Source: Mesorhizobium sp. (lineage in GTDB: Bacteria; Pseudomonadota; Alphaproteobacteria; Rhizobiales; Rhizobiaceae). From it: DNA of 64,000 bases. Location of the stretch: the NCBI RefSeq assembly GCF_017306545.1, contig NZ_JAFKID010000022.1:1-64000 (forward strand), read 5' to 3'. Position 1 is the stretch's first letter; each line of letters opens with the position of its first letter. The position numbers and the translations under genes were made by a program. Below the pieces are notes generated by a model that was not told where the DNA came from, searched no databases, and saw only the letters and a program-made list of their open reading frames with translations. Below are positions 29,601-49,810 of this stretch, piece by piece.

Positions 29601-30575
29601 GTCGGACGGCGTGCCGCCGTAGGCCGCGCCGCCGTCATGCCGGGAAACGACCGGCGCGTCCGCGCGCTGGACGCCGGAAACGATCCAATCGCTCGACAGC
29701 CCGTCAGCGCTGGCCGTGGTCACGGCCGGGCGGACGCGGCAATGGCCTGCCCTCAGATCGTCGCCGAACCAGGTAACGATCAGCGCCACATGCTCGAGAT
29801 TGGGGCATGTCGTCTGCAACTCGTCCAGCGAGGCGGCGATATCCGTGCCGGCAAACAGGACGTTGCGGTTGATCGCCGCCTCTTCGCCCGGCCGCTTCTG
29901 CCGCGTGACGAGTGCCGGCGACAGCCCGTATTCGATCGCGCCGGGAAGCAAGGCTACGGCGCGCACGGACCGGTGAAGTGCACCGACCGGCCGAATGATC
30001 TCGAACTGCACCTGCGGAATACGGTTGCCGTAGTCGCCGATCGGCAGCCGGTCGAGCACGATATAAGCGATATCGCGATAGGCCGGCGTGTTGCCGGCGC
30101 CCTGTTTCGCCTCGATCAGCGGATCGGCGGGCTGCGCGGCGGAACCTTGATAGACACGCAATTCGACCGTCTCGCGGTCGATTTCCCTACCGTCCGCCCA
30201 GATGCGGCGGATGCCGGCGATCTCGCCTTCGCAAAGGGCGAAAGCGACGTTGGCGTAGTAGGAATATTCCGTCACCTTGGGGCCGAGCTTGCCCTGCCGC
30301 CGGGTCGCCTGGCTCTCTTCGAAGCGTGTCGCCCAGATCAGGATGCCGCCGAGCCGCGCCGTGCCGTAAAGGCGCGGCAGCGCCACGCCCTCCTCGGCGG
30401 TGAACGGCCGTGCGCCGCTGAGGCGCGGTCCCTCGATGCGGCTGGTGCCGTTGATCAGCGCCCGGTCGACGGCATAGCCGGCCAGCGCGCCGGCGGCGGT
30501 GCCGATGGCAGAGCCGACGGGACCGAGCAGTCCGCCGAGATAGGCGCCGGCTGCTTGCAGAAGGATTGTCGCCAT
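26679..30575 (-). CDS. GTA host-specificity / tail-tip protein (gp15-like)
   Basis: 1298 residues, near the length of R. capsulatus gp15. An N-terminal glycine-rich hydrophobic segment (GPVGSAIGTAAGALAGYA) is followed by a tail-hub region. Residues about 400-740 hold the GTA TIM-barrel-like domain with FLIGSEMRGL, GADWSEYFGHHPADG and VWLTELGCPAVDKG, which look like a glycoside-hydrolase barrel with conserved Glu residues. A phage tail-3-like domain and the C-terminal rcc01698-type domain complete it. It forms the distal tail fibre hub that contacts the recipient envelope, possibly cutting cell-surface glycans. It starts 15 bases after the peptidase gene. Confidence 0.93.
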   Translation of the reverse strand: MATILLQAAGAYLGGLLGPVGSAIGTAAGALAGYAVDRALINGTSRIEGPRLSGARPFTAEEGVALPRLYGTARLGGILIWATRFEESQATRRQGKLGPKVTEYSYYANVAFALCEGEIAGIRRIWADGREIDRETVELRVYQGSAAQPADPLIEAKQGAGNTPAYRDIAYIVLDRLPIGDYGNRIPQVQFEIIRPVGALHRSVRAVALLPGAIEYGLSPALVTRQKRPGEEAAINRNVLFAGTDIAASLDELQTTCPNLEHVALIVTWFGDDLRAGHCRVRPAVTTASADGLSSDWIVSGVQRADAPVVSRHDGGAAYGGTPSDRSVIDAIVEIKARGLSVTLYPFMMMDIPDGNASPDPYGRAEQPSYPWRGRITVDPAPMLPGSADRTAAARTQVVSFCGSALPIDFAASGDTVAFSGSADDWGFRRLILHYAHLAVRAGGVDAFLIGSEMRGLTTLRDEADAFPFVEQLCALAADARSVLGAGTRITYGADWSEYFGHHPADGSGDVYFHLDPLWAHPAVDAVGIDNYMPLSDWRDADYAGGNPDGFAGPYDPAGLAEAVAGGEGFDWYYPDAEAREARARAPITDGAYGKPWTYRCKDIVNWWSNRHFDRVGGVQKAAATAWVPQAKPVWLTELGCPAVDKGPNQPNVFPDPKSAENSIPYFSGGGRADAAQHRFLEAHLRHWGGDAGAISDTANPLSSVYGGRMVDPSRIYLWAWDARPFPAFPLRNDLWTDGTNWNRGHWLNGRLANPALGDLVNAILADHGQPAADIGAVTGSVAGYVVDDPTSARAALEPLLDLFGLIVAEDPDRLVIRQADASGAAAVAVDEFVSAPDEPVVETKREPDHDLPAEANLTFRDPLSEYQTATVRSLRLGAAGSRQHSLSFPGVLEAGQARALLDDWLKRTWYGRETTSFAVPQPQTEIVPGAIVTVAASGNPSEFLVTEIEDGLVRKVSARQITRGVPAVWSNAMPTGAVTAPAVVGRPHVLFLDLPAAVGSGAVQDQFRVAAWQKPWRSQAIFVAPGDDGFVARGLVAKRAGVGRLTAALGAGFAGRLDRTGWLSVELFDAEAASVSRLQLLNGANAAAVRSGSGAWEVLQFETAEEVAAQTWRLSGLLRGQLGTTDAMAAGAPAGADFVMLDDAVAPAGLLSSEAGLSLNWRVGPSSLDFSADNFVQASEVGGVRALLPYAPVHLRAVRDGDDFVLSWTRCGRIDADQWEGTDIPLAEESELYRLEIAPVDGAAVRTVEVAQPRWTYAAAAIAGDFGARPASIDVTVRQLGTSIGWGLPASRRLALV

Positions 30576-30590
30576 AGAGGCTCCGAACGG

Positions 30591-31040
30591 TCAGATGGAT
30601 GGAAAAGCGAAGACGGCCGCGATGCGGCGTCGCCATTGCGGCACGAGCGGCGACAGCGCGACGGCGGCCGCCCCTTCGTAGGCATGAACGAACCTGTCCG
30701 CGCTAACGGCGATGCCGAGATGCCGGGCCGGCCAGTGCGGGCGCCAGCGAAACAGCAGCAAGTCTCCCGGCGCCACGGCTGCGGCGTCCTTTTCGTGAAA
30801 ATGCCGCCGCGCGGCATCGGCCAGTCGGTCGCCCTCGCCGTTCGGCGACCAGTCGGCGGCATAGGCGCCCGGCTCTTCCAGCTCGCGGCCGTAGACCTGC
30901 CGCCATACGCCGCGCACCAGCCCGAGACAGTCGCAGCCTATGCCTTTGCGACAGCCTTGATGCCTGTAGGGCGTGCCGATCCAGGCCAGCGCCTCGGCAA
31001 TCACCGCGTCGGCGGGTTCAGGGAACGACTGGGCCGCCAT
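30591..31040 (-). CDS. NlpC/P60-family cell-wall peptidase (GTA gp14-like)
   Basis: 149 residues. Catalytic Cys lies in GCDCLGLVRGVW near residue 37, the His in PARHLGIAV near 107, both in the normal order for NlpC/P60 cysteine peptidases. It lacks a signal peptide, as expected for a protein carried in the tail. It is thought to cut peptidoglycan peptides of the recipient to let the particle or DNA through. It overlaps the gp13 gene by 23 bases. Confidence 0.93.
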   Translation of the reverse strand: MAAQSFPEPADAVIAEALAWIGTPYRHQGCRKGIGCDCLGLVRGVWRQVYGRELEEPGAYAADWSPNGEGDRLADAARRHFHEKDAAAVAPGDLLLFRWRPHWPARHLGIAVSADRFVHAYEGAAAVALSPLVPQWRRRIAAVFAFPSI

Positions 31041-31908
31041 CGAAAACGCCGCCGTCGGTCACATAGGAATAGGCCGAATCGTTGCCGGGCAGGTGCGGAA
31101 AACCACGAAAATTCAGCGCATTGGCGAACTTCGCCTTACAGGTCGTAAAGCTTTTGTCGCAGCCGGCCGCGATCGAAAAGGCGTCGCCGGGTGCGATCGC
31201 CGGGCCGACGGACGGCAACAGGACGAGGCTCGTCATGCTTCCCTCCCGGCGATGAGCGACAACCCGCTCGGAGCGGCCCGCACGCGCGCCGCTCGTCCAG
31301 GTCAGTGTACCTGCGGAGAACCAGCCGCCTTCATAAGCTTCCAGGCTCGCGACCCCGAACGTGTCGGATGTGCCGACCGTCGTGACGGTTCCAGCCACCG
31401 TGAACCCCGGCTGATCGAGTAAAAAGCCACAACGCGCATCGCCCAGTTCCGCATTGCAGGAGCGCGTGACATAATGGCCGTTCGGCTGGTCGAGCGCCGT
31501 CACCAGACTTTCCAGTTCGGCGACGAAGCGTTCATCGCTGCGCGTGATCTTGCCGATGGTCGCGGTGCGGATCACGGCGAAATCCGTCGGCTGGCGCCAG
31601 TTGACCAGCAGCGTCTCCACCTTGGCGCCGTCGTAGAGCCCCGCGGCTATATCCTCGTCGCTGATGCGCTGCGAGGACAGCGCGCCTTCGACATCGACCG
31701 TATCGACGGCCAGCCCGAGCGAGTCGCGCGCCTCGCTGGCGGAGAAGCCGGTTTCGGGCTCGCAAGTCAGGCCGTCGACCGCCAGCCGACGGTCATGGTC
31801 GGTAAAGCCCCAAACCGTACCGTCGCGCCGGGTCAGGCGCCAGCAATGGCTGACGGTGGTGACATCGCGGGCGAAATGAGCCGCGAGCGCCGCAGGATAG
31901 GCCGTCAC
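31018..31908 (-). CDS. GTA baseplate protein, DUF2163 (gp13-like)
   Basis: 296 residues from a GTG at 31908 that overlaps the stop of the preceding gene (GTGA). The N-terminal DUF2163 domain (CWRLTRRDGTVWGFTDHDRRL) and the C-terminal phage_BR0599 domain (Cys-containing AAGCDKSFTTCKAKFANALNFRGFPHLPG region, four Cys in all with RSCNAELGDARCGF) are both present. The conserved cysteines match those that bind iron-sulphur in R. capsulatus gp13 as seen in particle structures. It is a baseplate hub protein. Confidence 0.92.
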   Translation of the reverse strand: MTAYPAALAAHFARDVTTVSHCWRLTRRDGTVWGFTDHDRRLAVDGLTCEPETGFSASEARDSLGLAVDTVDVEGALSSQRISDEDIAAGLYDGAKVETLLVNWRQPTDFAVIRTATIGKITRSDERFVAELESLVTALDQPNGHYVTRSCNAELGDARCGFLLDQPGFTVAGTVTTVGTSDTFGVASLEAYEGGWFSAGTLTWTSGARAGRSERVVAHRREGSMTSLVLLPSVGPAIAPGDAFSIAAGCDKSFTTCKAKFANALNFRGFPHLPGNDSAYSYVTDGGVFDGGPVVP

Positions 31909-32555
31909 AACTGTACCTCGACCAACGGGATGGATGGAATCTGCCCTGCCTTGAACGCTTTCAGGTTGACGGACAGGCGCTCGGTATCGAAGCGCACCGG
32001 CACGTCGAACTCGTAGCCGGCGGTGATGACCGCTCCCGCCGCAGGAAGATGGCCCGGCGCAAAGACGATCTCGCCTGTCTCGCCGTCGAAGCTGCAAGCC
32101 GAGGCCATGTCCTGCTCGACGGTCGCGACGGCCACGCGAAGGCTTTCCGCGCGCGGCTTCATGACGAGGCGGCGATAGGCATCGTCGCCGGCGCCATAGA
32201 CTTTCGCCAGTGGAAAGCGGTCGCTGACGCCATCGCCGACGCCGATCGCCTGATCGAGCGGGGATGGCGCCGCGCCCGGCCGGCAGGACTTCATGTCGAA
32301 CGGATCGCGGAAGCGGAAGGCGTGGAGAGAACCGCGCCGCGCCTCGAAGAAATCGATCACCTCATGCAGATCGTCCAGCGAGCGCACGCCGGTGCCGGCG
32401 TCGTAATAGTGCCGCGACTGTGAAAAACGCGCATTGCGTTTTTCCCGCCCGGAGGTCAGCGCGACGATCTCGTTGCGCCGTTCCGGCCCGCCCGTCGCGC
32501 CGAAGGAGACGCCGAGCGGAAACAGCACGTCGTGGAAACTGGAAAGTTCGGTCAC
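31905..32555 (-). CDS. GTA distal tail protein, DUF2460 (gp12-like)
   Basis: 216 residues from a GTG at 32555. The DUF2460 signature is clear: FPLGVSFGATGGPERR near the start, SQSRHYYDAGTGVRSLDDLHEV, and HAFRFRDPFDMKS. In phage terms it is a distal tail (Dit-like) protein that joins the tube to the baseplate. The next gene overlaps its stop. Confidence 0.93.
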   Translation of the reverse strand: MTELSSFHDVLFPLGVSFGATGGPERRNEIVALTSGREKRNARFSQSRHYYDAGTGVRSLDDLHEVIDFFEARRGSLHAFRFRDPFDMKSCRPGAAPSPLDQAIGVGDGVSDRFPLAKVYGAGDDAYRRLVMKPRAESLRVAVATVEQDMASACSFDGETGEIVFAPGHLPAAGAVITAGYEFDVPVRFDTERLSVNLKAFKAGQIPSIPLVEVQL

Positions 32556-32563
32556 GGATAGCC

Positions 32564-33145
32564 TCAGAAGGTTCGGGTTCCGCGCGAGACGGCGCGCGCC
32601 AGCATGCCGGTGATCTGCGCCTCCGACTTGCGGAAGGAGGAGGCGTCCTGCGCGGTGACGTTGAAGACGACGTTGACCGGCGCGGCGTTTCCGGCTGCTG
32701 CCACCCCCAGGCTGCCGTCGGGGCCGCGGCGCAGCGGCAGGATGGCTTCCGACCCGGCCTCGCCCATCAGGCCGAGATTGCCGCCGAGCGGAAAATAGGT
32801 CGGTGCCGACACGACACCGCCGCCGGCGAAGGGAACGACATGGCCGGGCACGCCGCCCTTGGCGAAAGGCAGGATGCCCGCCAATCCGCCCACCAGCCCG
32901 GAAAACAGCGAACCGGCCAGCGATTGCAGGGGTTGCAGGCCCTGCCTCAGCGCCATGCCGGCCAGGTTGAGGCCGATGCGGCGCAGCACGTCGTCGAACT
33001 CGCGGCCGCTGACGACAGCGCCCTTCAGCGCCCCGGCCATCTGCGAGCCGAAATTTTCCGACAGTTTGCCGAGGTCGGCCAGCGCCGCCTCGAAGGGTGC
33101 CGTGTCGGCGCGCACGGACACGATGACGTCTTCGGCCAAGGTCAA
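32564..33145 (-). CDS. GTA tail tape-measure protein (gp11-like)
   Basis: 193 residues, close to the roughly 220 of R. capsulatus gp11 and far shorter than phage tape measures. N-terminal ADTAPFEAALADLG is the phage tape-measure start. A hydrophobic Gly-rich centre (SLFSGLVGGLAGILPFAKGG) follows, and the C-terminal part has GLMGEAGSEAILPL, a motif of lambda-type tape measures. Its short length predicts a short tail. It overlaps the previous gene by 4 bases. Confidence 0.92.
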   Translation of the reverse strand: MTLAEDVIVSVRADTAPFEAALADLGKLSENFGSQMAGALKGAVVSGREFDDVLRRIGLNLAGMALRQGLQPLQSLAGSLFSGLVGGLAGILPFAKGGVPGHVVPFAGGGVVSAPTYFPLGGNLGLMGEAGSEAILPLRRGPDGSLGVAAAGNAAPVNVVFNVTAQDASSFRKSEAQITGMLARAVSRGTRTF

Positions 33146-33318
33146 TTCTCCTGATCCAGAGTATCGGGAAAGGCGCGCATCAGCGCCGCGAGATCAGCAC
33201 GCAGGGGCGCCGGACCGCGCGCGGGCGAGCGGGCGCGCACGGCATGGCCGAACTCGACCGGCGTCATCGCCCAGAAGGCGTCCGGCGAAAGCCGCAGCAG
33301 GCCGAAACCGGCCGCCAT
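33142..33318 (-). CDS. GTA tail assembly chaperone (rcc01693-like), start uncertain
   Basis: About 58 residues from ATG 33318. The core LLRLSPDAFWAMTPVEF is diagnostic of the small phage tail assembly chaperone found between gp10 and gp11 in RcGTA-type clusters. Homology-like sequence (AFPWDDAM) appears to extend upstream of this ATG back toward the gp10 stop, but I find no ATG, GTG or TTG in frame there. The true start is therefore either this internal ATG or a rare codon, or translation continues from gp10 by frameshift, as occurs for tail chaperones of several siphophages. Confidence 0.75.
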   Translation of the reverse strand: MAAGFGLLRLSPDAFWAMTPVEFGHAVRARSPARGPAPLRADLAALMRAFPDTLDQEN

Positions 33319-33362
33319 CGCGTCGTCCCACGGAAAGGCCGACCGCTCGCCAGCTGCGGCAT

Positions 33363-33704
33363 CTAAGGGTTTTGCGGGGTTGCTCCTGCGGTCGCGGTGC
33401 CGAACGTGGCCACCAGCAATTCCGACACGACCGCCGCAAAGCCGGCCGCACCGTTGGCGCACTGCATGGCGCCGACCGCCTCGTCGTCGATATCTTCGCC
33501 GGCGCCGCGCAGGCCGGCGCCGATCACCCGCATTATGTCGAGTGCCGACAGCCGCCCGGTCGAAAACCGGTCCACCAGCGCGGCAAGATCGTCCGCCGCA
33601 TAGGCCGCTTCCAGTTCGGCCAGCGCGCCCAGCGTCAGGCACAGCCTGCGCGGTCTGCCGTCCAGTTCGGCCGAAATCTCGCCGCGCCGCCGGTTCGCAC
33701 TCAT
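33363..33704 (-). CDS. GTA gp10-family tail protein
   Basis: 113 residues. It belongs to the GTA_gp10 family by its start (GEISAELDGRPRRLCLTLGALAELEA), which is shared with tail tube-associated chaperones, and by its position. A low-complexity end (ATAGATPQNP) precedes the stop. ATG 33704 overlaps the stop of the tail-tube gene (ATGA). It probably works with the next small gene in tail assembly. Confidence 0.88.
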   Translation of the reverse strand: MSANRRRGEISAELDGRPRRLCLTLGALAELEAAYAADDLAALVDRFSTGRLSALDIMRVIGAGLRGAGEDIDDEAVGAMQCANGAAGFAAVVSELLVATFGTATAGATPQNP

Positions 33705-34117
33705 GCCACCACCGCGAAGCTGACCGCGCCCGCCGACTCCAGCGCCATCTCGAACGTGATTTCGCCGTCATGGGCGCCGGAATATTCCAGCGAAGTGATC
33801 TGGAACGGGCCGGAGACGGTGCCGAAGTCCGGAACCGCCATCTGCCAGGCAGCGATTTCCCCGGCGAAGAACTTCGACCGGATCAGCGCGTCTGACTGGG
33901 CGTCCTTGAAGATGCCTGAACCGCTGACGGCGGCGCGCTGCACACCGCTGCCGGCGAGCAGTTCGCGCCAGCGCCCGGCCGAATCCGCATCGGTGATGTC
34001 CACCGTCTCGCTGTTGAAAGCAATGCGCTTCGACCGCAGGCCGGCGACGGTGACGAAACCGCCGGTGCCATCGGAATCGAGTTTGAGAAGAAGGTCCTTG
34101 CCCTTCTGCGCGCCCAT
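33701..34117 (-). CDS. GTA major tail protein, TP901-1 type (gp9-like)
   Basis: 138 residues that begin GAQKGKDLLLKLD and contain AGLRSKRIAFNSETVDITDADSAGRWREL, the hallmark of TP901-1-like tail-tube proteins. Copies stack into the tail tube. Forty-six bases separate it from gp8, one of the few gaps in the operon. Confidence 0.92.
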   Translation of the reverse strand: MGAQKGKDLLLKLDSDGTGGFVTVAGLRSKRIAFNSETVDITDADSAGRWRELLAGSGVQRAAVSGSGIFKDAQSDALIRSKFFAGEIAAWQMAVPDFGTVSGPFQITSLEYSGAHDGEITFEMALESAGAVSFAVVA

Positions 34118-34163
34118 GCAGGCCTCCTGGTTGTGCTGTCGATTGTGGGGTTGATCCGGCGCC

Positions 34164-34571
34164 TCAGGCGCCGTCCTCGATCATGGCGCGGAAGCGCAAC
34201 AGGCCGTGATGGATCAAAAGATCCTCGTCGTAACGCGCTTCCGAATAATCCAGCCGCAGGGCGACCAGCCGGTGGGCCTCCAGAGTGAGCGGCTCTTCCA
34301 GCCGCGCCCGGATGGCTTCCATGATGGCCAGCGCTTCCTTCTTGCCCTGGCTCTTCGACCAGACATGCAGGATAAAAAGCTGTTCGGCGCCGCTTTCGGT
34401 TGCCGTGCTCCAGTCGTAGATGCCGGTCATGCCGAACGTCACATAGGGAAAGCGGGTGTTTGCGGGCGCCTGATCGAATACCTTGGCGCCACCGAGCAGC
34501 GCCATCAGCGCGCTTTCGGCGCCCAACGCGGCAAAGATCGCCTTTTGAAGATCAGCCGCGGCCGCGATCAT
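34164..34571 (-). CDS. GTA tail terminator/completion protein, DUF3168 (gp8-like)
   Basis: 135 residues of the DUF3168 family: LQKAIFAALGAESALMALLGG at the start, then VFDQAPANTRFPYVTFG and HVWSKSQGKKEALAIMEAI. It caps the tail tube at the head-proximal end. Its TGA lies in the 3-base loop of a 7-bp GC hairpin (34157-34163 with 34167-34173), which has no T-run. It overlaps the small gene upstream by 20 bases. Confidence 0.92.
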   Translation of the reverse strand: MIAAAADLQKAIFAALGAESALMALLGGAKVFDQAPANTRFPYVTFGMTGIYDWSTATESGAEQLFILHVWSKSQGKKEALAIMEAIRARLEEPLTLEAHRLVALRLDYSEARYDEDLLIHHGLLRFRAMIEDGA

Positions 34572-34740
34572 CGCCGTCCTCCTTCGTGCGCCGATCCAAA
34601 ACCGGGCGAGCCTGCCGCCTCTCCAGCGGCGGCTGTCTTATAGAAAGAGTGCCGCGCTCGGCCCGCTCGGCCAGGTCGAGCGCCCTCCAGCGCAAGGCGC
34701 GCACAAGGCCGTCGAGCGTCATCGCCATCGTCACCTTCAT
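34552..34740 (-). CDS. Small GTA-embedded protein of unknown function between gp7 and gp8
   Basis: 62 residues from ATG 34740, whose first bases overlap the gp7 stop (ATGA). Its 3' end overlaps gp8 by 20 bases. The first half is an amphipathic helix (TLDGLVRALRWRALDLAER) and the rest is very Arg-rich. The double coupling to both neighbours argues that it is translated. It has no counterpart in the R. capsulatus cluster that I know of; a small assembly or head-tail factor is possible. Confidence 0.6.
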   Translation of the reverse strand: MKVTMAMTLDGLVRALRWRALDLAERAERGTLSIRQPPLERRQARPVLDRRTKEDGDDRGRG

Positions 34741-35075
34741 AGGGTCGCCTCCCGCGTCCGGCACAGAAGGTAGCGGCCGCTCTCGTCGGGATCGTGCACG
34801 GTGACGATCCGGAAGCAGCGGTCGCCGCCGGCGAAGCGCATGTCGGCTTCGACATCGCCGCGATGGCGCAGGGTGATGCGGTGCGTCACCGCCTCCAGCG
34901 TCTGCCCGGCGCCGAAGCGGCTGTCGGCCGATACCGGCTCGATGCGGGCAAACACCGTGGCGACGTCGCTCCAGCTTTCGGCGAAGCCGCCGAGACCGTC
35001 CGACACGGCCGTCACCGTCTGGAGCACCAGCCGGGTGCGCAGCGCGCCGGGATCGACAAAGGTTTTCCCCATCAC
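34737..35075 (-). CDS. GTA head-closure / head-tail adaptor protein (gp7-like)
   Basis: 112 residues of the SPP1 gp16-like head-completion fold: DPGALRTRLVLQTVTAVSDGLGGFAESW, then AVTHRITLRHRGDVEADMRF and a final beta strand. A GTG at 35075 overlaps the gp6 stop, and an ATG at 35072 is the alternative. It closes the capsid vertex and joins it to the tail. Confidence 0.9.
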   Translation of the reverse strand: MMGKTFVDPGALRTRLVLQTVTAVSDGLGGFAESWSDVATVFARIEPVSADSRFGAGQTLEAVTHRITLRHRGDVEADMRFAGGDRCFRIVTVHDPDESGRYLLCRTREATL

Positions 35076-35641
35076 AGCCGCCCCGCGCGATAGCCGGCGA
35101 CGATGCGGTCGAAGCCGGCGGGATAGGAGACCGGCTGGTCGGCCGGGCCGTAACCGGCGCGGAACTCGTACCAGTGCGCCACCAGAAGCAGGATCGCCCG
35201 CTTCAGCGGGTCGGGAACGTCGGTTCCCGCCTCGCCGAAACCGGCTGTGAAATCGATCTCGAGGCCGTTCATGGCGCGCAAAGGCGCGACGGGCGCGGTG
35301 AAATGAATACGCGCCGGCCGCGACACGGTATCGATCTGATAGGTGGCGGGATCGACCACCGACCCCTCGCCTTCGCTGCCGAAGGCGGTAACAGCCTGAA
35401 TCTCGATCAGCGGATAAATCCTGACGAGCGTACAGCCGGTTTGCGGCCAGTCGTCAAGGACGAGCCGCCAGCTTTGTGCAAGCAGCGCTATGCCGGTGCT
35501 GCGCTCGACCTCCTGGCGGGCGGCGCGGATCAGGCCGGCCAGCAGGTCGTCGTCATCGCCGTGGTCGATGCGCAGATGGGCCTTTGCCTCGGCCAGCGTC
35601 ACCGGTTCGGCGCCCGGGTCTACGGTGCGGATAAGCGTCAT
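35072..35641 (-). CDS. GTA head-tail connector (gp6-like)
   Basis: 189 residues. The N-terminal EPVTLAEAKAHLRIDHGDDDDLLAGLIRAARQEVE is the phage QLRG/gp6-like connector domain that binds the portal. ATG 35641 has GAAGG about 8 bases upstream. It is separated from the capsid gene by 101 bases that hold a strong intrinsic terminator, so its expression may depend on readthrough. Confidence 0.92.
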   Translation of the reverse strand: MTLIRTVDPGAEPVTLAEAKAHLRIDHGDDDDLLAGLIRAARQEVERSTGIALLAQSWRLVLDDWPQTGCTLVRIYPLIEIQAVTAFGSEGEGSVVDPATYQIDTVSRPARIHFTAPVAPLRAMNGLEIDFTAGFGEAGTDVPDPLKRAILLLVAHWYEFRAGYGPADQPVSYPAGFDRIVAGYRAGRL

Positions 35642-35659
35642 GCGTCAGCCTTCATGGAG

Positions 35660-35702
35660 AAAAAGAAAAGCGGCTCCGGCGGGGAGAAAACACCGGAGCC
35701 GC
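35660..35702 (-). terminator. Strong intrinsic terminator inside the GTA operon, between gp5 and gp6
   Basis: On the minus strand a perfect 10-bp GC stem (35702-35693 with 35679-35670; 13-base loop) is followed at once by TTTTCTTTTT (35669-35660). A second hairpin (CTCCCG at 35709-35714 with CGGGAG at 35731-35736) lies between it and the capsid stop. It should stop most transcripts after the capsid gene unless RNA polymerase is modified to read through. Confidence 0.85.
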
Positions 35703-35742
35703 CGTCAACTCCCGCCCACTCAGAAAGGGACGGGAGAAGTAC

Positions 35743-37005
35743 TCAGGCGGTGCCGAACTTCAGGAGCTTGATGGCGTCGAAGTCCTGCACGCCGCCGCCG
35801 ACGCGCTTGGTCGTGTAGAACAGCACGTAGGGCTTGGCGGAGTACGGATCGCGCAGTACCCGGACGCCAGCACGGTCGACGACGAGATAGCCGCGGCTGA
35901 AATCGCCGAAGGCGATCGGCGTGGCGTTGGCGCCGATGTCGGGCATGTCCTCGGCCTCGACCAGTGGGAAGCCCATCAGCATGGCGCGCTGGCCGGGGCC
36001 GGCGGGCGGCTGCCACAGATAGTTGCCGTCGGCGTCCTTCAGCTTGCGGATCGCCGCCTGCGTCTTGCGGTTCATGACCCAGTTGGCGTTCTGCCGATAG
36101 CCGGCCTTCAGCGTGTAGACGGTGTCGATCAGCACGTCCGACTCGTCGGCGGCCGGCCAGCCGCCGGAAACGCCGGTCAGCGTGTAGCCGATCTTCCCCC
36201 ACGCCCAGGCGCTTTCGGCGACCTGCGTGTAGCTGAGGAACCCCTTCGGCTTGGCGGTGCCGTCGCCGGTGACGAAGGCGGTGCCTTCCTGCTCGGCGAA
36301 GGCCGCCTCCACTTCCGCCGAGATCCACTGGTCGAGATCGACGACGGAGTCTTCCAGCAGCGAGGCGGTCGCGGCCGGCATGGCGTAGAGTTCCATGGTC
36401 TGGAACTGCAACTCGGCCAGCGTGGTGGCGCTGGTCTGCGGGCGCTCGGCCGTTTCCGCCACCCAACCGACCGCCGGACCGGTGGCCGAGAACGGCTTCT
36501 TCAGCACCGCCGCGGAAACCTGCCGCACCGAAGCAATGGAGCGGATCGGCGAGAGCGCCGACAGGCGTTTGCCGATCTCGGTTTCCGTCTCGGGCGGGAC
36601 GAGATAGCCGCCGTCCTGCCCGGAGCCGCCGAGATTGGTCGACATGGCCTTGGTGTCCAGGGAGCGCAGCCCACGGTCGTCGCCGGAGCGCATATAGGCG
36701 TCGAAGGCGGCCTTGTGTTCGCTCGGCCCCGCGCGATCTTCGCGACCGAGAACCGGGCGGATGCGCTTCAGCGCCAGCATGTCGAGCGCCCGCTTCTGCT
36801 CATCCAGCGCACGCGAGATGCGCTCCACCTTCTCGCCGGTCAGCGCATCGGCGCCGAAGCGGCCTTCGATCTGCGCCAGTTTCTCGTCGTTGCTGTCCTT
36901 GAAGGCCTCGAAGGTGGTCATGAACTCGCCGAAGGCGTCCTTCAGGTCGAGATAGTCGTCGGCGGCCGCCTTGGTTTCAGGCGCCGCTGCGAGCGTTGCA
37001 TTCAT
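35743..37005 (-). CDS. GTA major capsid protein, HK97 fold (gp5-like)
   Basis: 420 residues from ATG 37005, which overlaps the gp4 stop. Residues about 1-115 are the helical delta (scaffold) region, rich in charged residues. The predicted cleavage area for the prohead protease is near AMSTNLGGSGQDGGYLVPP (about 118-135). The HK97 core continues with AAVLKKPFSATGPAVGWVAETAERP and ends in YVLFYTTKRVGGGVQDFDAI. It assembles into the DNA-containing head. Confidence 0.95.
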   Translation of the reverse strand: MNATLAAAPETKAAADDYLDLKDAFGEFMTTFEAFKDSNDEKLAQIEGRFGADALTGEKVERISRALDEQKRALDMLALKRIRPVLGREDRAGPSEHKAAFDAYMRSGDDRGLRSLDTKAMSTNLGGSGQDGGYLVPPETETEIGKRLSALSPIRSIASVRQVSAAVLKKPFSATGPAVGWVAETAERPQTSATTLAELQFQTMELYAMPAATASLLEDSVVDLDQWISAEVEAAFAEQEGTAFVTGDGTAKPKGFLSYTQVAESAWAWGKIGYTLTGVSGGWPAADESDVLIDTVYTLKAGYRQNANWVMNRKTQAAIRKLKDADGNYLWQPPAGPGQRAMLMGFPLVEAEDMPDIGANATPIAFGDFSRGYLVVDRAGVRVLRDPYSAKPYVLFYTTKRVGGGVQDFDAIKLLKFGTA

Positions 37006-37685
37006 AGAGAATATCCCTGCGGTTTGAGTGAGCGTGTCGCCCGGCGAAGACGTTCCGCCAGGCCGTGCATGGTTTCGGGCGCGGCATCCCGCCCGCGCGC
37101 CAGACTGGCGAAGCCCTTCGCGATGACGGTACGGGCCTCGCCTCTTGAAAGCCCCGCATCCCGCGTGAGCCACAACTCGAATTCCCTGACGGTCGGCAGC
37201 GGCCTGCGCCCCTTGACCGTCTCGATGCGGGCGCCGGGCAGCATCGGGAAGGTGACGACCGAGATTTCCCAAAGGTCGGCTTCCAGGATGCGACGCACGC
37301 CGGTCGCCGCATCGCGCCGAGCCTTGACTGTGCGAAAGCCGATGGAAAGACCGTCCAGCGCGCCGGCGCGCATCAGGCTCAGCGCCTCGCGAGCGCGGGT
37401 CGAGCCCGCCGTGAGACGGCCACGTACGAACAGGCCGCGCCGGTCCTCGCGCACCTCCGTCCAGGTGCCGATCGGCTCGTTCGGATCGTGCTGGTAGAGC
37501 ATGCGGATACCGGCGGCACCGCGTCGGCGGAGCGAACCGGCGAAGGCGCCGCGTTCCACCGCGTCCTTGCCGAGATCGACCTCGCCGAACAGGCTGGCAT
37601 AGCCGGAGAACGTGCCGTCCGTCTCCACCTTGTCGAGCACCAGATCGACGAACTTGCGTTCGGTCCGCCGCACCTCACCGTTCAT
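37002..37685 (-). CDS. GTA prohead protease, HK97 type (gp4-like)
   Basis: 227 residues from ATG 37685 (MNGEVRRTERKF), chosen because GGGAGA lies about 7 bases upstream; the ATG at 37691 would sit on top of that site. It carries the herpes/HK97 protease fold: FSGYASLFGEVDLGKDAVERGAF, the catalytic His in MLYQHDPNEPIG near residue 70, and Ser in GALDGLSIGF near 115. It removes the scaffold part of the capsid protein during maturation. It overlaps the upstream membrane-protein gene by 11 bases. Confidence 0.93.
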   Translation of the reverse strand: MNGEVRRTERKFVDLVLDKVETDGTFSGYASLFGEVDLGKDAVERGAFAGSLRRRGAAGIRMLYQHDPNEPIGTWTEVREDRRGLFVRGRLTAGSTRAREALSLMRAGALDGLSIGFRTVKARRDAATGVRRILEADLWEISVVTFPMLPGARIETVKGRRPLPTVREFELWLTRDAGLSRGEARTVIAKGFASLARGRDAAPETMHGLAERLRRATRSLKPQGYSL

Positions 37686-38028
37686 CGGCATTCTCCCGAT
37701 TTTTCTTGCCAAAGAGGCTTCCGATCCCGTTCTGCTGGAAGGCACGCACGACGAAGCCGAGCGCCCACCAGGCGCACAGGCTCGCCACTGCGGATCCCAT
37801 CAGCATGAGCTCCGTCGGGCCAATCGCTGTCTCGATCTCGAGTTCGGAGGCCACCTTGAGGCCGGCCGTGCCACCGAACACCAGCCCGCACACGACGCCG
37901 ACGGCGAAGCGGGCAGCCGCCTCGCGCCGGCCGTGCGGCAGCATATAGGCGAGCGAGATGGCGGAACCGGCGACGGCGCCGCCGGCCTTGGCCAGCCACA
38001 GCCAGGCTGTCTGGGAAAAATCGTTCAT
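37675..38028 (-). CDS. Small membrane protein embedded between GTA portal and protease genes
   Basis: 117 residues from ATG 38028 (MNDFSQTAWLWLAKAGGAVAG). Three hydrophobic segments are visible (about 11-30, 43-62 and 75-95), and the C-terminal tail is charged (FGKKNRENADER). Its start follows 17 bases before the portal stop side and its end overlaps the protease gene. R. capsulatus carries a small gene at about the same position (often called g3.5), but a clear function is not known. Membrane anchoring of capsid assembly is one possibility. Confidence 0.75.
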   Translation of the reverse strand: MNDFSQTAWLWLAKAGGAVAGSAISLAYMLPHGRREAAARFAVGVVCGLVFGGTAGLKVASELEIETAIGPTELMLMGSAVASLCAWWALGFVVRAFQQNGIGSLFGKKNRENADER

Positions 38029-38045
38029 GATCTTGGGTCCGTAAT

Positions 38046-39227
38046 TCAGCCGAGGCCGCGCGGCTGGTAGCCGACCGCCTCGCGCTTCTCGTCTTCCGTG
38101 AGGAAGGAGGCCGCATCGACGCGCTTCCACAGGGCGTCGCGCTCGCTGGAGAGGCCTTCGATGCGGTCGGCGTCGTACCAGAGGCGCAAGCCCTCGCCGA
38201 ACGGCCCGGCCAGCCAGGCCGACAGTTCCTTGGCGGTGCGCGCCACCAGCGGCAGCACGGTCAGGCGGTAGAAGGCGCGGTTGGCCTCCTGATAGTTGGC
38301 GTAGGTGTTGTCGCCGGGAATGCCGAGCAGCATCGGCGGCACACCGAAGGAGAGCGCGATGTCGCGGCTGGCCGAATGTTTCGCCTCGATGAAGTCCATG
38401 TCCTTCGGCGACAGCGCCATCGCCTTCCAGTCCAGCCCGCCCTCCAGCAGCAGCGGCCGCCCTGCGCGGCGAGCGCCCGAATAGCCCTCCTCCAGTTCCG
38501 CCTTCAGGCGCTCGAACTGATCGTCGGTCAGGTTGCCGCCGTCCCGCGGCGCATAGACCAGCGCGCCGGAGGGCCGCGCAGAATTGTCGAGCAGCGCCTT
38601 GTTCCAGGTGCCGGCGGCGTTGTGCGTGTCTAGCGCCATCAGGGCCGCTTCCAGCGGCGGAAAACCGTAGTGGTCGTCGAGTGGGTGGAAGAGCCTGAGA
38701 TGCAGAGCGCCGCCGCCCTCGCCGGCGCCGAGCGGCACTTTACGGCGAGCCGATCCCTCGCGATGATCGAGCGCCACCGGCCAGCCGGTCGCGTCCGTTT
38801 CCACCGTCACCCGGTCGGGGCGAAGCAGATGCAATTCGCGCGCATCACCACCCGCCTCGATCAATTCGACATAGGCGTTGCCGGCGAGCAGCAGATGACC
38901 ATACAGCGCCTCGAAGAAGGTGGCGCCGGCCTGCCGCTGGTTCGGCTGGCCGAGCAGCTTCAGCAGCGAGTGCTCTTCGATCTCGGCTGCGCCCTCGTAG
39001 AGCAGCCACGGGATCGCCGAGGCGGTTTCGGCGATCAGCCGCACCGAGCGGTGGACGATCGGGTTCCTCATGAACCCTTCGCGCGCCAGCGCTGCATAGT
39101 CGCGGCGTGTCCAGCGCGCCTCGGCTTGCGCCTGGAAGGCGATGAATCCGCCAGAAGCTCCGCTTTTCGTTTCCACGCGCGCGGCAGCACCATTCCCCTT
39201 GCGGGGCCAAGGCCATATCCAAGCCAT
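38046..39227 (-). CDS. GTA portal protein (gp3-like)
   Basis: 393 residues of the HK97 portal family: FMRNPIVHRSVRLIAETASAIPWLLY near residue 53, HLLLAGNAYVEL near 110, LRLFHPLDDHYGFPPLEAA near 175 and the crown region SFGVPPMLLGIPGDNTYANYQEANRAFY near 292. Twelve copies form the ring through which DNA enters the head. It starts 11 bases after the large terminase stop. Confidence 0.95.
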   Translation of the reverse strand: MAWIWPWPRKGNGAAARVETKSGASGGFIAFQAQAEARWTRRDYAALAREGFMRNPIVHRSVRLIAETASAIPWLLYEGAAEIEEHSLLKLLGQPNQRQAGATFFEALYGHLLLAGNAYVELIEAGGDARELHLLRPDRVTVETDATGWPVALDHREGSARRKVPLGAGEGGGALHLRLFHPLDDHYGFPPLEAALMALDTHNAAGTWNKALLDNSARPSGALVYAPRDGGNLTDDQFERLKAELEEGYSGARRAGRPLLLEGGLDWKAMALSPKDMDFIEAKHSASRDIALSFGVPPMLLGIPGDNTYANYQEANRAFYRLTVLPLVARTAKELSAWLAGPFGEGLRLWYDADRIEGLSSERDALWKRVDAASFLTEDEKREAVGYQPRGLG

Positions 39228-39238
39228 ATCCCATCCTG

Positions 39239-40528
39239 TCAGCGAAGTTCACGGATTCGCGGCTCGGCCGCGTGGTTCGGCATCAGTTCCGTCACCGCCC
39301 AGACCAGCGCGTCCACGCGGTCGGGCGAGCGGCCGTTCGACAGCCCGTCCGGGCCGAATTCGCACATCTCGTCCTCCAGTTCGGCGAAGCGGCCGGCATG
39401 GAGGACGCGGCCCTGCTGGTAGAGCGCGGCGATCGGCTCGGCCCTGAGCCACTTGCCCCGCCGCGCCCTGACCGCCTTGACCGGCACCGCCGGATCGACG
39501 GTGCGGACCACCGCCGAAGCCATCTCGCCGCCCTGGTTCACCTCGACCAGCAGGCAATCGGCCTGCAAGGAATGGAACAGCGCCACGGCCTGCGAGGCCC
39601 AGCGCTGCGGCGCCGCACCACGCAACGTCGCATCGGCCAGCACCACCGCCCTGCCCTCGCCGTCCAGCCCGGCGGCGACGATGCCGCAGGCGTCGGACGT
39701 CTTGCGCGAACTGGCCGGCGGATCGACCGCCACGACGATGCGTTTCAGTTCGCCAGGCGTCGAGACGATCGCCGTTTCGAGCAGGCCGCGCGACCACAGC
39801 GCATCGGCGCGGTCCTCGATCAGTTCGCCGCCCAGTTCCTGCCGGCCGAGCACGCTGCCGGCATAGCGCCGCTCCACGGCGGCCAGGAAACCAGCGGCGA
39901 GATGGGCGCCGTTGTCCTGCGTCGTCATATGCGTTGTGACGGTGCTCGGGTCCGCCAGCAGCCGCTTCAGCAGCGGCGTCGGGCGCGGCGTCGTCGTCAG
40001 CAATTGCAACGGGCGCTCGCCGAGCCGCAGACCGAATTGCAACATGTCGAAGCAGTCTTCGGCATAGCGCCATTTGGCCACCTCGTCGCACCAGGCCGCC
40101 TCGAACTGATGGCCGCGCAGGCTTTCGGGATCCTCGGACGAGAACATCATCGCCACCTGCCCGTCTTTCCAGACCAGCCTGCGGCGGCTCGCCTCGAAGC
40201 GCGGCCGCTCCCGCCGCGAAATCGTGGCGATGCCCGAAATGCCTTCGATCATCACGTCGCGCACATCGGCCAGCGTCTCGCCGACCAGCGCCAGGCGGAA
40301 ATGCTTATGGCGGGCGAAAGGCGGCACGGAACGCGCCAGCCCATTGACCCATTCAGCGCCGGTGCGCGTCTTGCCGGCGCCGCGCCCGCCGAGCAGAAGC
40401 CATGTCTCGGGCGGCCCGCCGAGCAGCGGATATTGCGCCAGGCGCGCGCTACGGAACCACTCGTTGCGGATCAGCCAAGCCTTCCGCCCGCCCACATTCT
40501 CCTGCAACCAGGGATGCTGCGAGTTCAC
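39239..40528 (-). CDS. GTA large terminase subunit (gp2-like)
   Basis: 429 residues from a GTG at 40528, which lies within the last 80 bases of gp1; a later GTG at 40495 is possible. ATPase: Walker A LGGRGAGKTR near residue 47 and the acidic Walker B AAWCDEVAKW near 135, then a coupling TTTPRPTP. RNase H-like nuclease: VVAVDPPASS near 253 and a final Asp in SPDRVDALVW near 410. It cuts host DNA and drives it into the capsid. Headful packaging of about 4 kb is known for R. capsulatus; the capacity here is unknown. Confidence 0.94.
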   Translation of the reverse strand: MNSQHPWLQENVGGRKAWLIRNEWFRSARLAQYPLLGGPPETWLLLGGRGAGKTRTGAEWVNGLARSVPPFARHKHFRLALVGETLADVRDVMIEGISGIATISRRERPRFEASRRRLVWKDGQVAMMFSSEDPESLRGHQFEAAWCDEVAKWRYAEDCFDMLQFGLRLGERPLQLLTTTPRPTPLLKRLLADPSTVTTHMTTQDNGAHLAAGFLAAVERRYAGSVLGRQELGGELIEDRADALWSRGLLETAIVSTPGELKRIVVAVDPPASSRKTSDACGIVAAGLDGEGRAVVLADATLRGAAPQRWASQAVALFHSLQADCLLVEVNQGGEMASAVVRTVDPAVPVKAVRARRGKWLRAEPIAALYQQGRVLHAGRFAELEDEMCEFGPDGLSNGRSPDRVDALVWAVTELMPNHAAEPRIRELR

Positions 40529-40949
40529 GGGCAAGCGCGATAATTCTGTCGTTGATAGCCTGGAGCACGGCGGCCACGTCTTCATCCGATCCGATCTGGT
40601 TCTCTTTGGCGGCCTCGTCGGGCCGCATGATTTCGCCGATCTTGTCGAGACCGCGGACCATGGCGATGATGCCGTCGATCTCGGCCTTGCTGATCCCCTT
40701 GCCTGTCTCGCCGGCGCCGCTTCCCAACGCCTCCAGCCGGCCGAGAAGCTGGCCGGCAACCTGCCGCACGCGCGCGGCCACGTCCTGTCCGGAGCCGAGG
40801 CGCACCGTCCATCCTTCGCGTTCGGCTTGCGCCAGCAGGCCGTTGACCGAGCGGCCGCACGCTTCGGCGATCCGCGCAAGCGAGATATCCGTGCCTTCGA
40901 CAAGCGCGCGCAGGGCACGGTTGCGGATATCCGCAGACGAGGCGGCCAT
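40449..40949 (-). CDS. GTA small terminase subunit (gp1-like)
   Basis: 166 residues, first gene of the cluster, with a 127-base leader after the predicted transcription start. The N-terminal part (NRALRALVEGTDISLARIAEACGRSVNGLLAQAEREGW) is a helix-turn-helix that could bind DNA. The C-terminal half has helices for oligomerisation and for docking on gp2. In R. capsulatus this subunit was found to bind DNA weakly and without sequence choice, which explains random packaging. The 3' end overlaps the gp2 gene. Confidence 0.87.
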   Translation of the reverse strand: MAASSADIRNRALRALVEGTDISLARIAEACGRSVNGLLAQAEREGWTVRLGSGQDVAARVRQVAGQLLGRLEALGSGAGETGKGISKAEIDGIIAMVRGLDKIGEIMRPDEAAKENQIGSDEDVAAVLQAINDRIIALARELAASLVAGECGRAEGLADPQRVVP

Positions 40950-41082
40950 CGGTTCTCCCTGATCTGGACGATGAATGAAGGGCGACAGTCGGCGCTGGCC
41001 TGAATGCCGCCAAACGGCGATCGTTCTCAGACCGCTTTCGCTGCCTGACCGCCGCTGCCCACACTTTTGTGACGATAGCGAA

Positions 41083-41111
41083 ACCCTATCAGATGACCGT
41101 TACGGTGTCAA
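41083..41111 (-). promoter_or_regulatory. Predicted sigma70-type promoter of the GTA operon
   Basis: Reading leftward, TTGACA (41111-41106) and TAGGGT (41088-41083) are separated by exactly 17 bases, and the predicted start lies near 41076. This is an excellent -35 box with a medium -10 box. It points at gp1 (start 40949). The divergent penicillin-binding protein gene starts at 41269. Confidence 0.7.
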
Positions 41112-41140
41112 GAATAAATTCCTATTTTTTACCGTAACCG
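41096..41140. promoter_or_regulatory. Palindrome and second copy of its half-sites around the GTA promoter (operator candidate)
   Basis: ACCGTTACGGT at 41096-41106 is a perfect palindrome around its central T. It lies in the -35/-10 spacer and reaches the -35 box. A degenerate copy, ACCGTAACCG, lies at 41131-41140, about 35 bases (near three and a half turns) upstream of the promoter. An AT-rich stretch (41111-41130) lies between the two and could be bent by IHF. The arrangement suits an activator or repressor binding two sites. Confidence 0.5.
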
Positions 41141-41268
41141 CCCAAAGCCGATCCGCCGTTCCGGTTGTCGCTTGCCGGCACCGCCGAAATCGGGGAAAAG
41201 AGGTTCGATCCGCCCTGAAATCGCCCGCAAGCGTTTTCAATCTACAGGCGAGGGATTGCGGATACCAC

Positions 41269-43425
41269 ATGGTCGAGCCAATCGAACCGCGCAGAAGGAG
41301 AGGCCGTGTAGCCGCGTGGCTGCTGGCGATCGATGCCTGGCTCGATTCCTCCCTCTACGAAATCCGCTTCAAGGCCGGCGAATTCTGGGAAGCGGCGACG
41401 ATCTTTTCGCGCCGGTTCCGCCTGCACGGCTGGCGCCGGGTGCTGATCGAACTGCTCAGCGAAGGCTTTACCATGGGGGCCGGCGGCGCGGTGGTCATGC
41501 TGGCGCTCGCTCTGCCGGCCTTCCAGGCCACGCAAGGCAACTGGCGCGCGCAGGACGATTTCGCCGTCACCTTCCTCGACCGCTACGGCAACGAGATCGG
41601 CCAGCGCGGCATCATCCAGCGCGATTCCGTGCCGGTCGACCAGATGCCGGACCATGTCATCAAGGCGGTGCTGGCGACCGAGGACCGGCGCTTCTTCGAG
41701 CACTACGGCATCGACGTGCTCGGCCTCATGCGCGCCATGACCGAGAACGTGCGCGCCAACTCCGTCGTGCAGGGCGGATCGAGCATCACCCAGCAGCTCG
41801 CCAAGAACCTGTTCCTTTCGAACCAGCGCACATTGCAGCGCAAGATCAAGGAAGCCTTCCTGTCGATCTGGCTGGAAGCCAATCTCTCCAAGAAGGAAAT
41901 CCTGCAACTCTACCTCGACCGCTCCTATATGGGCGGCGGCACGTTCGGCATCGAGGCGGCGGCGGACTTCTATTTCGGCAAGAGCGTCAAGGACCTGAAT
42001 CTGGCGGAAGCGGCGATGCTGGCGGGCTTGTTCAAGGCGCCGACCAAATACGCCCCTCACATCAATCTGCCGGCGGCGCGCGCCCGCGCCAACGTGGTGC
42101 TGAACAACCTCGTCGACAGCGGCTTCATGACCGAAGGCCAGGTGCTGCAAGCCCGGCTTCATCCGGCCAGCGTCGTCGACCGCGGCGAGCGCAAGAGCCC
42201 GGACTATTTCCTCGACTGGGCCTTCGACGAGGTCAAGCGCCTCGCCCCGCCGGGCACGCACTCGCTGGTCGCCCACACCACCTTCGACGCCAACATCCAG
42301 AAGGCGGCCGAAGAGTCGCTGGAATTCCATCTGCGCCAGTACGGCAAGGACTACCACGTCAGCGAAGGCGCCATCGTCGTCATCGAGACGAACGGCGCGG
42401 TGCGGGCCATCGTCGGCGGGCGCGACTACGGCGCCAGCCAGTTCAACCGTGCGACCAGGGCACTGCGCCAGACGGGTTCGTCCTTCAAGCCCTATGTCTA
42501 TGCGACAGCCATGGAGCATGGCTTCAAGCCGGACTCGGTCGTCTCCGGCGGCCCGATCAACTGGGGCGGCTGGCAGCCGCACAACTACGGCGGCGGCTTC
42601 TCCGGCAACGTCACCTTGCTGACGGCTTTCGTGAAATCGATCAACACCGTGCCGGTGCGGCTGGCCAAGGACTACCTGTCGATCCCGCCGATCAAGGCGA
42701 TGGCGGAGGCGATGGGGGTTGAATCGCCGCTGGAAGGGCACAAGACCATGGTGCTCGGCACCTCCGGCATGACAGTCATGGACCAGGCAACCGGCTACAG
42801 CGTCTTCGCCCAGAACGGTTATGTCGGCACCCGCCACGGCATCACCCAGCTCGTCACCCACACCGGCGACGTCGTCTACGACTTCGCCAAGGACGCGCCG
42901 CCGCCGCACCGGGTGCTTTCGGAACAGGCGCTGCGGTCGATGAATTATATGCTCACGCAGGTGCCGGTCATCGGCACGGCCCGCCGGGCCGCCCTGCCCG
43001 GCATCGTCTCGGGCGGCAAGACGGGCACCACGCAATCCTATCGCGATGCCTGGTATGTCGGCTTTACCGGCAACTACACGGCGGCGGTGTGGATGGGCAA
43101 CGACGACTTCAGCCAGACCCACAACATGACCGGCGGTTCGCTGCCCGCGATGGTGTGGCAACGCCTGATGGTCTACGCCCACCAGAACATCGACCTGAAG
43201 CCGATCCCCGGCATCGACCATCCCTATGTCGACGACGCGGTCGCCGCCAAAGCGGAGGAAGCGCAGAAGAAGCAGGCCGAGGCGGATGCAGCCAAGGCGG
43301 CGGCCGAGCGGCCGCCGGTGCTTTCCAGCCGCACCACCCAGATGCTGCGCGACCTGACCCGCCTGTTCCAAACGGCACCGCCGCTCGAACCGGCGGCCGA
43401 GCCGGAAACCCTTTCAGCGCTTTGA
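41269..43425 (+). CDS. Class A penicillin-binding protein (glycosyltransferase/transpeptidase, PBP1a type)
   Basis: 718 residues from ATG 41269. A cytoplasmic N-terminus and one membrane helix (about 65-85, GAGGAVVMLALALPAF) precede the GT51 glycosyltransferase with catalytic Glu in ATEDRRFFEHYGID and GGSSITQQLAKN. The transpeptidase has Ser-x-x-Lys TGSSFKPY near residue 403, SxN in KSINTVP near 460 and KTGTTQ near 584. A Lys/Ala/Glu-rich C-terminal tail (EEAQKKQAEADAAKAAAE) follows. It polymerises and cross-links peptidoglycan at the outer face of the inner membrane. It shares a 319-base divergent region with the GTA operon. Confidence 0.93.
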   Translation: MVEPIEPRRRRGRVAAWLLAIDAWLDSSLYEIRFKAGEFWEAATIFSRRFRLHGWRRVLIELLSEGFTMGAGGAVVMLALALPAFQATQGNWRAQDDFAVTFLDRYGNEIGQRGIIQRDSVPVDQMPDHVIKAVLATEDRRFFEHYGIDVLGLMRAMTENVRANSVVQGGSSITQQLAKNLFLSNQRTLQRKIKEAFLSIWLEANLSKKEILQLYLDRSYMGGGTFGIEAAADFYFGKSVKDLNLAEAAMLAGLFKAPTKYAPHINLPAARARANVVLNNLVDSGFMTEGQVLQARLHPASVVDRGERKSPDYFLDWAFDEVKRLAPPGTHSLVAHTTFDANIQKAAEESLEFHLRQYGKDYHVSEGAIVVIETNGAVRAIVGGRDYGASQFNRATRALRQTGSSFKPYVYATAMEHGFKPDSVVSGGPINWGGWQPHNYGGGFSGNVTLLTAFVKSINTVPVRLAKDYLSIPPIKAMAEAMGVESPLEGHKTMVLGTSGMTVMDQATGYSVFAQNGYVGTRHGITQLVTHTGDVVYDFAKDAPPPHRVLSEQALRSMNYMLTQVPVIGTARRAALPGIVSGGKTGTTQSYRDAWYVGFTGNYTAAVWMGNDDFSQTHNMTGGSLPAMVWQRLMVYAHQNIDLKPIPGIDHPYVDDAVAAKAEEAQKKQAEADAAKAAAERPPVLSSRTTQMLRDLTRLFQTAPPLEPAAEPETLSAL

Positions 43426-43534
43426 CGTCGCGTCGGCACGATACCGGCCGCTCCGGGTGCGGGATTTCGCGAGCTTGCCAGGGCAGGCCGCGCCACGATA
43501 TGCCGGCATGGCTTGGTTCCCGGTCCGGTCCGTC

Positions 43535-44666: not shown

Positions 44667-44681
44667 CCGCTCAGCGCCGGG

Positions 44682-44870: not shown

Positions 44871-44944
44871 GGTTCGCGTATTCCTCTCGGTTCGACCGGA
44901 GCACAACGCAACGCCTCCAATGCTTGATTAAGGCTCCCAGAGAG

Positions 44945-44960: not shown

Positions 44961-45057
44961 GGATCGCCGCTAATTTGAGCTTGTTCCGGCGCACGGCGAG
45001 GCTGGCGGTCAAGGCCCGAGCGGCGGAAAGTGTCGGTTGGCGTAAGGCGTATCCTTC

Positions 45058-49786: not shown

Positions 49787-49810
49787 AGACTTTCCGCTGC
49801 CCGACAGCAC

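Follow-up and report, generated by a model that had tools for sequence, protein, structure and literature searches.

Results

Genes and features of the locus

The window, a stretch of 64 kb of Mesorhizobium sp. DNA, holds on its minus strand an RcGTA-type structural cluster, so classed because the genes run in the order terminase, portal, protease, capsid, connector and tail and because GTA-specific tail proteins are encoded. The features relevant to this study are as follows.

26,679–40,949, minus strand: RcGTA-type structural cluster (terminase, portal, protease, capsid, connector, tail tube, baseplate hub, GTA_TIM tail protein)
35,072–35,641, minus strand: gp6 head-tail connector gene (TIGR02215, PF05135)
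35,660–35,703, minus strand: terminator-like hairpin and U-tract, called from sequence, fold, window scan, pair changes and recurrence; 5' arm 35,703–35,691, loop UUUUCUCCC 35,690–35,682, 3' arm 35,681–35,669, U-tract 35,668–35,660
35,709–35,736, minus strand: preceding hairpin, called from folds, directly after the capsid stop; UCUCCC in its 5' arm pairs with GGGAG
35,743–37,005, minus strand: gp5 major capsid gene, HK97-type (PF05065, TIGR01554), with the open reading frame listed to 37,272
41,083–41,124, minus strand: predicted GTA promoter; TAGGAATTTATTC 41,124–41,112, -35 TTGACA 41,111–41,106, dyad ACCGTAACGGT 41,106–41,096, -10 TAGGGT 41,088–41,083
50,334–51,176, minus strand: gene of a GafZ-like protein, DUF6456 (PF20057, E = 9.5e-48; no NCBIfam match)
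51,145–51,579, minus strand: gene of a GafY-like protein with a DnaA C-terminal helix-turn-helix (PF08299, 1.2e-13), overlapping the GafZ-like gene

The start of gp5 was read from the sequence, and its ATG (37,005–37,003) overlaps the end of gp4. The first-pass annotation had rightly named capsid gp5 and gp6 as the genes flanking the hairpin, as seen from the profile matches given above. The capsid protein was matched in 114 of 151 genomes of the same family. Three genomes of the same genus (G073, G253 and G284, 6.1–6.3 Mb) gave no capsid match, and in G073 the DUF6456 match was only weak (3e-10); the Mesorhizobium genome of the window, at 4.8 Mb, keeps the GTA. A rhizobial-type GTA capsid locus with 67% identity was also found in a record titled Bacillus subtilis SK6B4 (L225), which is probably a mislabelled or contaminated assembly.

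The hairpin between capsid and gp6

The 101 nt between the capsid stop and the ATG of gp6 hold two tandem hairpins, where the first-pass annotation had seen one; the hairpin that it described is present, but it is not alone. On the minus strand, positions 35,703 to 35,660 read 5'-GGCGGCTCCGGTG-TTTTCTCCC-CGCCGGAGCCGCT-TTTCTTTTT-3', and 35,669–35,703 fold into a 13-pair hairpin, including two G-U pairs (-26.1 kcal/mol), followed by UUUCUUUUU. A GC-rich stem-loop with a U-tract directly 3' of it, the sequence criterion of an intrinsic terminator, is thus found at 35,660–35,703. The stem had been described as perfect and GC, and it is not purely so, since its Watson-Crick part contains one U-A pair. 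In a scan of both strands of the 64 kb for hairpins with U-tracts, the site ranked first among 42 (14 on the plus and 28 on the minus strand); fold, U-tract and rank together confirm the claim of a terminator-like hairpin between gp5 and gp6. A separate scan, limited to loops of 3–8, listed an overlapping weaker register at 35,712–35,695 and missed the hairpin with its 9-nt loop, and the 19 sites that it gave in 31,000–50,999 were not clearly above chance (13.9, s.d. 4.0).

Folded together, the two hairpins (86 nt) reached -46.2 kcal/mol, with z = -6.3 and none of 200 shuffles as low. Attenuator-like switching between them was considered and rejected: in stepwise folding the first hairpin persisted, and the terminator took shape when its sequence was complete. 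An Rfam search of 10 loci gave no match at the family cut-off and one sub-threshold match to MicL (E = 0.43). Elsewhere in the window, another strong terminator-like hairpin, with TTTTCTTTTT, lies on the plus strand at 49,811–49,844, 3' of a DUF5330 gene and near the gafYZ-like pair.

Recurrence of the hairpin in relatives

The comparison of the gp5–gp6 gap across relatives, suggested in the first-pass annotation, was carried out with capsid loci sampled from the same family, order and class, using gaps of 30–400 nt. Exact duplicate gaps were collapsed and seven class loci with no gp6 match were left out. One set held 189 distinct gaps; 163 gaps were used in one count and 178 of 205 in the main count. 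The "family" group takes in named loci placed by capsid similarity alone. As controls we used 321 other codirectional gaps of the same loci, obtained with a home-made gene caller.

The gaps differ greatly in length and flanks, and a strong stem near gp6 recurs, its end usually lying about 22–36 nt 5' of the gp6 start. Of the family gaps, 130 of 141 had a stem of at least 8 pairs, where shuffles predict 32.1; for the order the figures were 22 of 29 (6.7 predicted) and for the class 7 of 8 (2.5), as against 139 of the 321 control gaps, although all these counts come from related sequences and are not independent. Terminator-like sites recurred likewise, in 69/141 family (2.4 expected), 11/29 order (0.7) and 3/8 class gaps (0.1), compared with 21/321 controls; a tighter rule of placement changed this little (67/141, 10/29 and 3/8, controls 20/321). 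A stricter rule, with a hairpin of at most -15 kcal/mol and a tail score of at least 3, was passed by 18/70 family, 5/39 order and 6/20 class gaps, and the z value of a single hairpin fell below -2 in 42/70, 25/39 and 10/20 gaps, respectively, a modest significance. The U-tract varies, and 72 of the 141 family gaps have no terminator-like site. In L238, from the same genus, stem and loop are kept and the U-run begins 5 nt past the stem, which still passes as terminator-like. A terminator-like site at the capsid–gp6 boundary is therefore recurrent but not universal. In many genomes the gap is long, e.g. 725 to 2,158 nt in L068, L082, L098 and L105, and looks as though insertions were tolerated there.

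Phages with related capsids were examined as well. From 16 phage regions, 13 were counted, after exclusion of two GTA-like loci (L268 and L269, 66–67% identity) and of one annotated on the opposite strand (L272). The gap after the capsid gene has a stem of at least 7 pairs in 11 of the 13 and of at least 8 pairs in 9, and is terminator-like in 7, so that 4 of the 11 gaps with stems are not terminator-like. The gap of L285 is strongly structured (-41.8 kcal/mol) with no such stem, and that of L287, of 17 nt, has none. Two other capsid loci of the window's own genome were also seen, one with a GC-rich hairpin after the capsid (L276) and one without (L277).

Covariation and covariance model

Of 79 candidate stretches, 50 were picked by eye and aligned as 63 nt at a fixed distance from gp6; the 29 left out were mostly more distant, and a few rows without the core stem, L019 and L025 among them, were retained. 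As the rows were picked after the gaps had been seen, the alignment favours the core stem, and it is with this in mind that its pairing is to be read: 85.4% of cells pair, compared with 38.7–52.0% in slid controls. Eight of the 12 pairs changed on both sides and none of 500 shuffles reached the covariation score, but a control slid by +3 came close (0.181 vs 0.191, and also 8 doubly changed pairs), and pairing mostly breaks down at the two outermost positions. The alignment nevertheless shows compensatory changes in the predicted stem.

In a covariance model search no match in the own genome scored better than the window site (1.3e-5, the next being 3.6e-3), with the site itself in the training set. 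Among 19 locus matches at E<=0.1, 17 sit in the sense orientation in the gp5–gp6 gap; the remaining two are the antisense strand of the same hairpin and a site elsewhere. The window, L041 and L042 match R1 by construction, because R1 was built from the 50-sequence alignment. A generic terminator or repeat element as the source of the core stem is disfavoured, an argument resting on the covariance model. The exact stem pattern CGGCYCCGG-N3-18-CCGGRGCCG occurs at two places in the own genome (giving four rows, as the pattern is self-complementary) and at 0–2 in each of six relatives; it proves little by itself, since the reversed-pattern control gave equal counts in the own genome (2 and 2) and the sole match in one relative (G062) lies off the GTA.

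An anti-Shine-Dalgarno-like loop

Unexpectedly, many post-capsid GTA hairpins carry an anti-Shine-Dalgarno-like (aSD) loop of the UUCCUCCC type. TCCTCCC occurs in 16 of 53 gp5–gp6 gaps and in 5 of 321 other gaps. A hairpin combining an aSD-type loop with a stem of at least 8 pairs was found in 50/141 family gaps (1.9 expected), 6/29 order gaps (0.3) and 1/8 class gaps (0.0), as against 1/321 control and 0/13 phage gaps; the six order gaps bear six different family labels. In two of the phage gaps the motif itself is present, in the stem in L273 and partly paired in L285. Two of the six order hairpins with such a loop lie far from gp6 (L089, 111 nt; L116, 265 nt), and the loop of L116 is mixed.

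Enrichment of the motif extends to the stretch immediately past the capsid stop: it falls within 40 nt of the stop in 14/29 order, 33/141 family and 24/321 control gaps, and is therefore not tied to the loop; in the eight class gaps it is not enriched (4, vs 3.4 expected). No association was seen between U-tract and aSD loop (Fisher p 0.39). Pairing of the loop with the ribosome-binding sites of eight GTA genes showed no preference in cis, and gp4 paired more weakly in cis than permuted; the g5 and g3.5 queries were left out as out of frame, and the g2 row is unreliable because its query has no true start. In the window, the regions upstream of g1 and gp4 contain GGGAGAA, complementary to UUCUCCC, which is not general in relatives.

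GafY/GafZ-like pair and the predicted GTA promoter

The GafZ-like gene comes after the GafY-like gene and overlaps it. The suggestion in the first-pass annotation that the DUF6456 protein looks like GafZ held up: besides the strong PF20057 match and the neighbouring PF08299 protein, 124 of 151 genomes of the same family contain PF20057, and of 14 control genomes Caulobacter vibrioides alone has it, the species in which GafYZ was found. Caulobacter GafY is described as having a DNA-binding domain of the DnaA domain IV type (PMC9632790), and the predicted DUF6456 and DnaA-domain-IV-type proteins of the window fit a GafYZ pair.

Upstream of g1 the sequence reads TAGGAATTTATTC-TTGACA-CCGTAACGGT-N7-TAGGGT, a predicted promoter with a 17-nt spacer. 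The pattern TTGAC-NNCGNN[AC]CG[GC][AT], written after the promoters had been seen, is present in 34/61 terminase-upstream and 0/79 control regions, and TTGAC with a perfect dyad of arm at least 4 in 22/62 and 5/79, respectively. The dyad arms co-vary in some loci (ACCGT/ACGGT, AGCGT/ACGCT), but asymmetric arms (e.g. AGCGT/ACGGT) are frequent too. A search of the own genome with the 16-base pattern TTGACANCGTNACGGT gave a single perfect match. In Caulobacter the GafZ element is likewise a palindrome between -35 and -10, with a different sequence (PMC11150451), which lends support, short of proof, to the view that GafZ could load at the predicted promoter. The signature of TTGACA, dyad and TAGGGT offers a practical way to pick out candidate GafZ-type promoters throughout the order.

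A palindrome-like sequence, TAGGAANNNNTTC, occurs exactly at 41,112–41,124 (minus strand), 51,580–51,592 and 51,689–51,701 (both plus strand), one copy lying at the predicted GTA promoter and two a short way upstream of the gafYZ-like pair. If one mismatch is allowed there are 7 matches, a number not clearly above the 3.7 given by chance. The sequence may act as an operator common to both, whether RogA-like or of another kind. Upstream of the pair there is also a gene for a ROS/MucR regulator (52,176–52,601, minus strand; PF05443, 6e-52).

Discussion

From these results, a hypothesis regarding the function of the hairpin may be put forward: on balance we consider it probable that a conserved hairpin in the RNA after the capsid gene brings some of the head-gene transcripts to an end or protects them, the rest being read through, probably with GafZ. 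Polymerase starting near 41,080 would make a head message of ~5.4 kb (g1–g5), and in the Mesorhizobium sp. of the window, where the U-tract is good, a fraction of it would stop at about 35,660. Such a partial stop would leave more capsid message than connector and tail messages. A phage particle contains hundreds of capsid subunits and only about a dozen connectors, which would make an excess of capsid message useful. The remaining polymerase would read through, probably with GafZ loaded at the promoter dyad and travelling along, as in Caulobacter, while a hairpin with a weak U-tract, as in some relatives, would more probably protect the 3' end of a processed mRNA.

Protection of the mRNA 3' end could also account for the element by itself. 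A ribonuclease would cut after gp5, the tandem hairpins would block 3' exonucleases, and the capsid message would outlive the rest with no need for termination. The strong stems in 130 of 141 family gaps, about half of them with no terminator-like tail, the pair of hairpins in the window and the four phage stems that are not terminator-like are all in keeping with this; U-tract hairpins are, however, far commoner in gp5–gp6 than in other gaps, and protection alone does not need U-tracts, so we regard it as possible but clearly less probable than the reading favoured above. A further proposal, that of the first-pass annotation, is a gated switch, in which polymerase halts at 35,660 unless GafZ is present and tail genes specifically, but not head genes, depend on GafZ. 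The window does encode a GafYZ-like pair and a promoter dyad, and Caulobacter GafZ, which also carries polymerase past E. coli rrnB T1 (PMC11150451), could pass the terminator-like hairpin of the window as well. Among the 25 of 28 minus-strand sites listed, moreover, none lies between the promoter and gp5, and the post-capsid hairpin is therefore the first candidate stop. Nevertheless, Caulobacter GafZ loads at the promoter, the demonstrated terminator lies 3' of the first gene, gtaT (large terminase), and the GTA cluster as a whole needs GafZ (PMC11150451), so that head genes made by default with only the tail genes dependent on GafZ, as first claimed, is unsupported. Terminator-like hairpins are also found after the capsid gene in 7 of 13 phages of other hosts, so that GafZ control does not follow from the site itself. 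We consider such a switch unlikely, a GafZ link to the hairpin as such being plausible.

Termination alone leaves the aSD-like loop unexplained. The loop might be a functional aSD element, the 3' end of the capsid mRNA being, or releasing, an sRNA that pairs with the ribosome-binding sites of other messages during GTA production. Its excess in family and order gaps over shuffles and controls, the constancy of the loop motif while stem sequences differ between families, its absence by this criterion from the 13 phage gaps and the loops of rhizobial alpha-r14 sRNAs, which carry CCUCCUCCC on variable stems (PMC10746234, PMC3927594), speak for a function. On the other hand, only about a third of family gaps and one of eight class gaps have it, the motif also lies outside loops near the capsid stop, no pairing preference was seen for GTA ribosome-binding sites of the same genome, and the 10 loci searched in Rfam gave no match at the family cut-off; we therefore hold this function doubtful. 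More speculative still is the idea that in Hyphomicrobiales GTAs an inherited post-capsid hairpin gained the aSD loop and the 3' end of the capsid message became a cuckoo-like regulatory RNA, abundant only in GTA-producing cells, that would dampen translation of host messages. Translational control of gp6 by a pseudoknot, the loop pairing with the gp6 Shine-Dalgarno sequence, would suit a hairpin that usually ends about 22–36 nt before the gp6 start, yet the duplex in cis (-5.14) was no better than permuted ones (-5.33), and the loop paired more strongly with gp6 sites from loci without the motif (-6.07), making this very improbable. Partial termination or 3'-end formation that favours the capsid message, with GafZ helping the rest through, is in our judgement the most likely reading.

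A search of the GTA literature by title and opening of the abstract found no report of a post-capsid GTA hairpin. An RNA element that recurs at a known gene boundary, as this one does, makes it possible to test control of the capsid-to-tail ratio in GTAs and, outside Caulobacter, readthrough dependent on GafZ. Should the aSD loop prove functional, a domesticated prophage would be producing a regulatory RNA out of its own capsid message, and, were the idea of a cuckoo-like RNA true, a single hairpin would serve as terminator and control both capsid dosage and host translation.

Comparison with known systems

With the Caulobacter GTA (CcGTA) as described in PMC11150451 the window shares the RcGTA-type cluster, a GafY/GafZ-like pair, a palindrome between -35 and -10 of the (here predicted) GTA promoter and a terminator within the cluster, which in the window is terminator-like. 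The Caulobacter terGTA, however, lies after gtaT and consists of three GC-rich direct repeats of 150 bp (PMC11150451), whereas the window has a U-tract hairpin after the capsid, not after the large terminase, in a gap of 101 nt in all.

The closest known form of an aSD-loop hairpin on a sequence-variable stem is that of the alpha-r14 (NfeR1)/cuckoo sRNAs of Rhizobiales. These are described as separate transcripts with three or four hairpins bearing CCUCCUCCC (PMC10746234, PMC3927594), whereas the window has one aSD loop in an intergenic region of an mRNA, the motif in its first hairpin being paired. The loop itself is UUUUCUCCC and not CCUCCUCCC, although some relatives come closer, e.g. L022 with UUCUCCUCCC. 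The element of the window departs from these sRNAs in two features and is therefore not filed as a member.

With tailed phages the window shares a GC-rich stem directly 3' of the major capsid gene, and differs from them in its aSD-type loop, found in none of the 13 phage gaps by the criterion used. T7 has a terminator after gene 10, usually read as raising the dosage of capsid. With stems after the capsid gene in 11 of 13 phages, a hairpin there needs no GTA-specific explanation, and its place after the capsid gene probably goes back to an old phage design that provides capsid in excess.
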